A DNA stretch of 64,000 bases from Alternaria dauci (taxonomy: Eukaryota; Ascomycota; Dothideomycetes; Pleosporales; Pleosporaceae): NCBI RefSeq assembly GCF_042100115.1, contig NC_091280.1, forward strand, positions 434,001-498,000, read 5' to 3'. How positions within the stretch are numbered: position 1 is the first letter of the stretch; the number at the start of each line of letters is the position of its first letter. Both the position numbers and the translations under genes were made by a program. Of the stretch, positions 48,249 to 58,347 are shown piece by piece. Under the pieces are notes generated by a model that was not told the DNA's origin, did no database searches, and saw nothing but the letters and a program-made list of their open reading frames with translations.

Positions 48249-48255
48249 AAAAAAA
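48249..48255 (-). terminator. Pol III terminator of tRNA-Glu
   Basis: Seven T residues on the minus strand, 9 nt after the tRNA discriminator base. This supports an active Pol III unit that reads through the whole gene including both inserts. Confidence 0.75.
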
Positions 48256-48264
48256 GATGGTTGT

Positions 48265-48417
48265 TTCCGACACCGGGAATCTGATTGATTGTTAGAATGA
48301 TGAGTCGAACTCTATTGAGTTGGATGAACTTACCGAACCCGGGCCTTGCCGGCACTGTACAGTGAACTGACTCTGCAAGATGAGAGCGGCAAATCCTAGC
48401 CACTAGACCATATCGGA
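48265..48417 (-). tRNA. tRNA-Glu(CUC) with an anticodon-loop intron and a second insert in the T-loop
   Basis: Read on the minus strand. The acceptor stem TCCGATA pairs with TGTCGGA and is followed by discriminator A. The A box TGGTCTAGTGG lies in the D arm. The anticodon stem TGCCG/CGGCA encloses loop CTCTCAC, anticodon CTC at 48384-48382. A 28-nt intron (48380-48353) sits at the standard 37/38 site. The T stem CCGGG/CCCGG encloses loop TTCGATT, but the loop is split after TTCG by 53 nt (48333-48281) beginning GTAAGT and ending CAG. Removing both inserts leaves a complete 72-nt tRNA-Glu with every stem paired. Whether the T-loop insert is removed is unknown; if not, the gene is a pseudogene. 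Confidence 0.85.
48281..48333 (-). other. spliceosomal-like intron inside the tRNA-Glu T-loop
   Basis: A 53-nt insert between tRNA positions 57 and 58. It has donor GTAAGT, branch-site match TTCTAAC at 48296-48290 and acceptor AATCAATCAG, all with spacing normal for fungal pre-mRNA introns. It interrupts the B box (GGTTCG|ATTCC) and contains AGTTCGACTCA (48311-48301), itself 9 of 11 to the B-box consensus counting N. Confidence 0.75.
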
Positions 48418-48923
48418 CTTTGATGGAGGTCTGGGAAAATGGTGATGATATGATGATGGGTGTGGCGATAATTGATGTGGTGGTGAGTGGGGCGGGCAGT
48501 GGAAGAATTTTGCAAAACTCACCAATGAACATTAGGCTAGCGGAAACAAGATGCGACTGAACTTGAGCAATGGGTGCTGGGCAACAATCCCTTGTCGTAT
48601 TTAGACAATACAAACTCTAATTGGGTGGGAACAACGGGCTGAGAGCTACAGGCATACGACTGGAACTTGGCTCACTGAGAACTTGAAAGAAGCGTCTGCT
48701 AGGCAAGGCTAGTACGACCATATCCCAAGTGAAGCATGCATGTTGCCCAACTCATTCTAGTATGCGCCTTCCGTTGCTATTCAAAGTTGCGCCATTCTGT
48801 GTCGTCGTGCGGTTTGAGTACGGCATCACGCTTGTACCATGCAAACCAAGCAATGACCACTGTGATGATCAGCACCAGGGCCGTCGTCGCTTCGGTCGAC
48901 ATGATCGGGGAGGCGCTCGACAG
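48418..48923. other. intergenic region
   Basis: Upstream flank of the tRNA-Glu gene and 3' flank of the thioesterase gene. Nothing else is seen. Confidence 0.6.
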
Positions 48924-58245: not shown

Positions 58246-58347
58246 GCCCGGCTAGCTCAATCGGTAGAGCGTGAGACTCTTAGCTTTCACGTCCTGAAGA
58301 CTCGATTGGTTATCTCAAGGTTGTGGGTTCGACCCCCACGTCGGGCT
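58246..58347 (+). tRNA. tRNA-Lys(CUU) with intron
   Basis: Acceptor stem GCCCGGC pairs with GTCGGGC. The D arm has TAGCTCAATCGGTAGAGC. The anticodon stem TGAGA/TCTCA encloses loop CTCTTAA, anticodon CTT at 58279-58281. A 29-nt intron (58283-58311) sits at the canonical 37/38 position. The T arm GTGGGTTCGACCCCCAC is intact. The mature tRNA is 73 nt with discriminator T. Confidence 0.96.

Follow-up and report, generated by a model that had tools for sequence, protein, structure and literature searches.

The window is a stretch of 64,000 nucleotides on contig C9 of the Alternaria dauci genome, which measures 34.9 Mb in 10 contigs. On its minus strand lies a tRNA-Glu(CUC) gene that is interrupted twice, as detailed in Table 1. 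One interruption is found at the usual place, between positions 37 and 38 of the tRNA. The other one coexists with it in the T-loop, between G57 and A58, which is not a canonical position for a eukaryotic tRNA intron. An earlier reading, made from the sequence only, had described a 72-nt tRNA-Glu(CUC) that is split in just this way, by the usual 37/38 intron and by a 53-nt insert that opens with GTAAGT, has CTAAC near its 3’ end and closes with CAG. All of this stands. The exons equal those of three intact paralogues, the 37/38 intron takes up the 28 nt from 48380 to 48353, and the T-loop insert runs from 48333 to 48281. The sequence-only reading was right, yet understated: there are three such split genes in the genome, not one, and the insert has a B box built in.

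Table 1. Features of the split tRNA-Glu(CUC) gene in the window, and related tRNA genes elsewhere in the genome.
Feature	Position	Strand	Basis
tRNA-Glu(CUC) gene, two introns, 153 nt including the discriminator base, exon 72 nt	48265..48417	-	direct reading
Exon 1, tRNA positions 1-37, anticodon CUC close to its 3’ end	48381..48417	-	sequence
A box TGGTCTAGTGG	48400..48410	-	sequence; A box as D-arm positions 8-19 (PMC3978253)
Canonical 37/38 tRNA intron, 28 nt	48353..48380	-	sequence, paralogue comparison
Exon 2, C38 to G57; its 3’ end is the native B box half GGTTCG	48334..48352	-	sequence
T-loop intron (putative), 53 nt, between G57 and A58	48281..48333	-	sequence; homologues in Glu on C5 and Gly on C2
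5’ splice site GTAAGT	48328..48333	-	unvarying in 3/3 inserts
Substitute B box (candidate) AGTTCGACTCA, core GTTCGANTC, inside the T-loop intron	48301..48311	-	core unvarying in 3/3 inserts
Branch site CTAAC (in TTCTAAC), with the branch A 11 nt away from the intron’s last base, G	48291..48295	-	unvarying, with equal spacing, in 3/3 inserts
3’ splice site CAG	48281..48283	-	CAG in Glu on C5 too; TAG in the Gly copy
Exon 3, A58 to discriminator base, 16 nt	48265..48280	-	sequence
Likely Pol III terminator, T7, 10 nt beyond the acceptor stem	48249..48255	-	sequence
Intact tRNA-Glu(CUC) paralogues	C1:3794314, C1:6248361, C8:627329	-, +, +	exons identical to window gene
Split tRNA-Gly(GCC)	C2:4391355	+	split-T-loop pattern match

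With the 5’ part of the gene as query, and up to 3 mismatches allowed, a search of the whole genome finds 5 tRNA-Glu(CUC) genes. Three of these have an intact T-arm, and two carry a T-loop insert: the gene in the window and one on contig C5 (C5:1630464, minus strand). The pattern GTTCG/GTRNGT..CTRAC..AG/ANNC, where the slashes are the junctions of the insert, matches 3 times in the 34.9-Mb genome, always within a tRNA gene, and its reversed control matches 0 times. One of the three is a tRNA-Gly(GCC) gene. For that tRNA 6 genes were found, 5 of them intact. Together, 11 genes were found for the two tRNAs (5 Glu, 6 Gly), and 3 of them have a split T-loop. This fraction refers to the found Glu(CUC) and Gly(GCC) genes only; in the tRNA family search, 63 of 931 candidates were scored.

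The insert is 53 nt long in the window gene and 54 nt long in both other split genes, and it always sits at the same T-loop position. Within each family, Glu and Gly, the exons are identical among all genes found, and the tRNA body is undecayed in 3/3 split copies. The 37/38 intron has 28 nt in the window gene versus 27 nt in the other four Glu(CUC) genes; ARAGORN puts a 27-nt intron after position 37 in two intact paralogues (C1b and C8). T runs follow the three split genes at +7, +10 and +21. The leaders of 5/5 Glu(CUC) genes, including both split ones, end in YCATCMAAG directly before the gene (in the window copy at 48418-48426, minus strand).

A looser search for a split T-loop (57/58 site, GTRNGT and YTRAY) gives 6 matches in the genome versus 4 for the reversed pattern, and the 3 extra matches have no tRNA around them by eye. 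Outside this genome, scans for the exact pattern returned 3 matches in viral contigs and 2 in genome contigs, with no tRNA context by eye; these scans demanded ATTCC after the AG, and so cover T-arms of this type only, in collections that are not meant for fungi.

With introns allowed, ARAGORN reports a tRNA over 8/8 intact copies (one misnamed as Thr) and over 0/3 split ones, so that others may sit unnoticed in public genomes. A plain ARAGORN run, without introns, finds 0 tRNAs in the window and is uninformative, since it misses an ordinary tRNA-Lys too. At five loci, the gathering score of the Rfam tRNA model is reached by 2/3 intact genes versus 0/2 split ones, which means that one intact gene is also missed. 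Over the whole window, the same model at the same score gives one tRNA, the tRNA-Lys, and misses the tRNA-Glu. This tRNA-Lys(CUU), at 58246-58347 on the plus strand, has a 37/38 intron and a normal T-arm, and is a control within the window.

The genome also contains mitochondrial-looking tRNA genes, densely grouped within some 55 kb close to the end of contig C3 (C3:3344209-3399162; loci L001, L002, L008-L010, L015 and L018-L023). Either mitochondrial DNA has been fused to a chromosomal contig here, or a large piece of it has been inserted into the nuclear genome. The genome further gives 2 matches to the AltA1 protein family, with a homologue that is nearer to the PDB entry named PevD1 than to Alt a 1.

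The motifs of the insert can be compared to those of ordinary introns in the same genome. The series GTAAGT..CTAAC..CAG has 3 matches in the window versus 0.13 expected, and 0 of 100 shuffles reach 3. Genome-wide there are 289+417 = 706 matches versus 55+63 = 118 for the reversed pattern; both figures count matches rather than introns, and a site with several possible CAG ends enters more than once. By these counts, GTAAGT..CTAAC..CAG is the usual intron consensus of this genome. Among the matches listed, which are on contig C1 only, intron-like ones span 42-79 nt, and inserts of 53, 54 and 54 nt fall inside this range. All three inserts have the hallmarks of a U2-type intron, namely GT..AG ends, a CTAAC-type branch site at fungal spacing, and a fungal length. 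The spliceosomal-type T-loop intron put forward by the sequence-only reading gains support from this, as related inserts in two more tRNA genes keep the signals and diverge elsewhere.

No group I or group II intron was found in the window, where the sole Rfam match at gathering score is the tRNA-Lys; the insert itself is 53-54 nt. Between 48100 and 48600, an Rfam search with E up to 10 gives 5 sub-threshold snoRNA matches and no self-splicing intron. An antisense snoRNA was considered as well and rejected. SNORD67 reaches 17.9 bits and SNORD101 14.4 (on the other strand), versus cut-offs of 35 and 47, and three sR matches are weaker. By eye, a box-C-like TGATGA is altered in the Gly insert.

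Neither of the two full-length U6 genes found in the genome has an intron, which means that U6 gives no independent sign of Pol III transcript splicing in this species. Two further U6 matches were found, one of them a fragment, the other a diverged copy that scores below the cut-off. At C1:5437718-5437778, a 3’ piece of U6 snRNA (L051) lies on the opposite strand, about 230 bp from the full-length U6 at C1:5438006; its 5’ part is different, and it has a T run of its own.

The three inserts are related but far from identical, with pairwise identities of 81, 74 and 70%. Their alignment has 54 columns, of which 34 are invariant and 20 variable. The 5’ splice site, the B-box core GTTCGANTC, the branch site and the terminal AG take up 21 columns, and 0 of these vary. 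The hypergeometric chance of that is 1.8e-6, and 22 of 58905 ordered placements of equal-sized blocks do equally well (3.7e-4), while the splice columns alone give a P of 8e-4 and the B-box columns alone a P of 0.017; all these values serve as description only, as the choice of motifs followed inspection of the sequences and the three copies are related. The sequence-only reading would have been refuted by related genomes with a random insert that lacks conserved splice signals. Among the paralogues within this genome the signals are conserved, which leaves that reading unrefuted.

The exons behave differently. When the two split Glu copies are compared, 10 of 53 sites differ in the insert versus 0 of 72 in the exons, and if the exons had drifted at the rate of the insert, the chance of seeing 0/72 differences would be 3e-7. 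Exon identity could partly reflect gene conversion with intact copies. Such conversion could not preserve the signals in the insert, since the intact copies do not have one.

Insertion at 57/58 splits the native B box GGTTCGATTCC into GGTTCG and ATTCC. AGTTCGAYTCA is contained in all three inserts. In sequence terms, 3/3 inserts in these Pol III genes thus combine spliceosomal-type intron signals with a B box of core GTTCGANTC. Boxes were scored with a matrix of 8 distinct examples: 7 from 18 nuclear loci, and the box of the tRNA-Lys. These 18 nuclear loci came from 30 tRNA loci retrieved, the other 12 of which look mitochondrial.

The intronic boxes score 10.5-11.0 (window copy 11.0), and the split native half scores 3.5. 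Real nuclear boxes score 10.5-15.6 for 7 of the 8, and 6.7 for the eighth. The substitute box deviates from the consensus at both ends and scores under most real boxes. Of 366202 background windows, which are flanks of the retrieved loci and partly overlap, a fraction of 8.5e-5 (about 9e-5) reaches the score of the intronic box. At this rate, a B box would arise by chance on the right strand of a 53-nt stretch in roughly 0.4% of cases. The B-box core turns up in 0.03-0.05% of shuffled inserts. The distance from the start of the A box to the start of the B box is 88-99 nt for the intronic box, and 59-71 nt for the split native one. By eye, no T-stem can be drawn from the bases around the intronic box. 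This points to a box that is kept as a DNA element rather than as a second T-arm.

These patterns make it quite likely that the insert functions as a U2-type spliceosomal intron within the T-loop of a Pol III tRNA gene, equipped with a replacement B box. The evidence base for this is one genome with three related copies. Insertion between G57 and A58 disrupts the internal B box. The intron brings a replacement with it, and we propose that TFIIIC can therefore still pair this box with an A box whose start lies 88-99 nt upstream. The Pol III transcript would run to the downstream T run. The T-loop intron would be excised in the nucleus by the spliceosome, by way of GTAAGT, CTAAC and AG, so that the T-loop TTCGATT is restored. 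The tRNA endonuclease would separately cut out the 37/38 intron. Removal of the T-loop intron would have to come before T-loop modification, and probably before export. A point against splicing is that the last exon has only 16 nt plus trailer.

On balance we would also favour a wider reading, in which this is a tRNA-specific spliceosomal intron family with its own TFIIIC box, and in which a tRNA needs the spliceosome as well as the tRNA endonuclease to mature. An intron that carries its own TFIIIC box could enter and spread through Pol III B boxes without silencing them.

The split genes may instead be pseudogenes, where a spliceosomal intron was gained by reverse splicing or conversion, but is retained, with the intact paralogues supplying the tRNA. 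Since both tRNAs have intact copies (3 Glu, 5 Gly), the split genes could indeed be dispensable. According to a review, an insertion in the D- or T-arm of a eukaryotic tRNA mostly affects a single gene among many synonymous ones, and such genes are presumed to be pseudogenes (PMC4090602). Conversion by intact copies may hold the exons alike. A recent pseudogene was the alternative that the sequence-only reading had kept in reserve, and it fits the data less well. The exons are unchanged in 3/3 copies while the inserts have diverged by 19-30%, and the variation avoids every splice and B-box column. Decay also does not sit well with a retained substitute promoter box, with T runs that can act as terminators, or with there being three such genes and not one. 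We therefore hold this to be unlikely. It is very unlikely that the loci are retained to bind TFIIIC, to act as insulators or to make Pol III transcripts other than tRNA, with splicing irrelevant. They do have an A box and a reasonable B box for such a role, yet it would leave the conservation of GTAAGT, CTAAC and AG, and that of the whole tRNA body, unexplained.

A tRNA-endonuclease intron at a non-canonical site, like those in red-algal, nucleomorph and crenarchaeal tRNAs, is highly improbable here. The fungal tRNA endonuclease measures the distance between the mature tRNA body and the anticodon loop, and GTAAGT, CTAAC and AG would all have to be coincidental. The junctions of the insert also lack a bulge-helix-bulge, with its two 3-nt bulges around a 4-bp helix: in the canonical register, 1, 0 and 0 of 4 pairs are found in the three inserts, with a maximum of 3/4 over 16 offsets. 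In the lineages named such introns do exist, including at T-arm sites, and related ones occur in several Thermoproteales tRNAs (PMC4090602, PMC3978253). Barely credible, finally, is an insert that is a stray copy of a genome-wide introner, without any tie to tRNA genes. Introner-like elements are known in fungi (PMC4457414), and such a family is apparent by eye elsewhere in this genome. That family has a different sequence however, and the core of the insert (a 23-mer, searched with up to 3 mismatches) is found genome-wide only in the three tRNA genes, where a reversed control of 2 matches puts 3 mismatches near noise. Many similar copies in protein-coding genes, as an introner-like element would have, are not what this search of the genome returned.

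The presence of the insert in two isotypes requires either transfer between genes or separate gain. A small intron family would have spread among tRNA genes with the same T-arm (two Glu-CUC, one Gly-GCC). Glu(CUC) and Gly(GCC) have the T-arm CCCGGGTTCGATTCCCGG in common, which may provide a track for gene conversion. Flanks were compared for 55 pairs of genes, every pair against 100 shuffles. In the downstream flank, the split Glu copy of C5 comes closest to intact ones on C8 (z 8.7) and C1 (z 6.7), versus a z of 1.0 to the split gene on C9, and the split Gly gene comes closest to the intact Gly gene of C5 (z 9.2). In the upstream flank, the two split Glu genes resemble each other more (z 4.5) than C5 resembles C8 (2.5). 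These mixed flanks suggest repeated gain or loss in the split Glu pair. Probable routes of this spread are gene conversion along the common T-arm and reverse splicing. Since the genome has both split and intact paralogues, it allows a direct study of how introns are gained and spread.

Several of the intron-like matches elsewhere in the genome have, by eye, a longer core in common, which is approximately TGTACGAAATGCATGTGAGAC followed by CACTAACTTCGTA, with differences. These introner-like matches are found for example at C1:2632636, 2390675, 2257896 and 3002306, and are unrelated to the tRNA inserts.

Spliceosomal-type introns in Pol III genes are in themselves not new. Work by Frendewey from 1990 is said to deal, to go by its title, with a B box match within the mRNA-type intron of the Schizosaccharomyces U6 snRNA gene. 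The fission-yeast U6 gene carries an mRNA-type intron (PMC10484740); the sequence-only reading had named pre-mRNA-type introns in Pol III U6 genes of some fungi as a precedent. By analogy, the fission-yeast U6 intron is the closest precedent: both cases have a spliceosomal-type intron in a Pol III small-RNA gene, with a B box within it. The host here is different, as it consists of tRNA-Glu(CUC) and tRNA-Gly(GCC), in three genes and two isotypes. Also unlike the Schizosaccharomyces case, the intron here splits the native B box and supplies a substitute, and the U6 genes found here are intronless. In 2017, U3 and U6 were described as the sole small structured RNAs then known to be often interrupted by introns (PMC5832005). 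The fungal U3 snoRNA introns in that work are likewise spliceosomal-type, interrupt a small structured RNA and have normal branch spacing, whereas the host here is a tRNA.

Among tRNA introns, those of the Guillardia nucleomorph, of Cyanidioschyzon and of crenarchaea resemble the present ones, with T-arm sites, more than one intron per tRNA, and related introns across tRNAs (PMC4090602, PMC3978253). They are ascribed there to the tRNA endonuclease with a bulge-helix-bulge, or to unknown means, and the available parts of both papers describe no GT..branch..AG and no intronic B box. The inserts here have both. Fungal introner-like elements are insertions in protein-coding genes. They are similar in that related spliceosomal introns are found at several sites of one genome (PMC4457414, PMC9860276). 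Unlike these, the family described here is found in tRNA T-loops only. As for a spliceosomal intron in a nuclear tRNA gene, the available parts of PMC11782384, PMC5148876 and PMC6461891 contain nothing of the kind. No description of one was found in the open-licence literature, mostly at the level of titles and the first lines of abstracts.

Nuclear tRNA introns are regarded as substrates of a protein endonuclease. Maturation of a tRNA by the spliceosome would, if true, break the partition that sets endonuclease-cut tRNA introns apart. It would also mean that U6 is not the only short Pol III transcript on which the spliceosome can act, and that the supply of two tRNAs is partly coupled to pre-mRNA splicing capacity. 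The candidate B box within the intron would be a concrete answer to the question of how an intron can survive amid an internal promoter.
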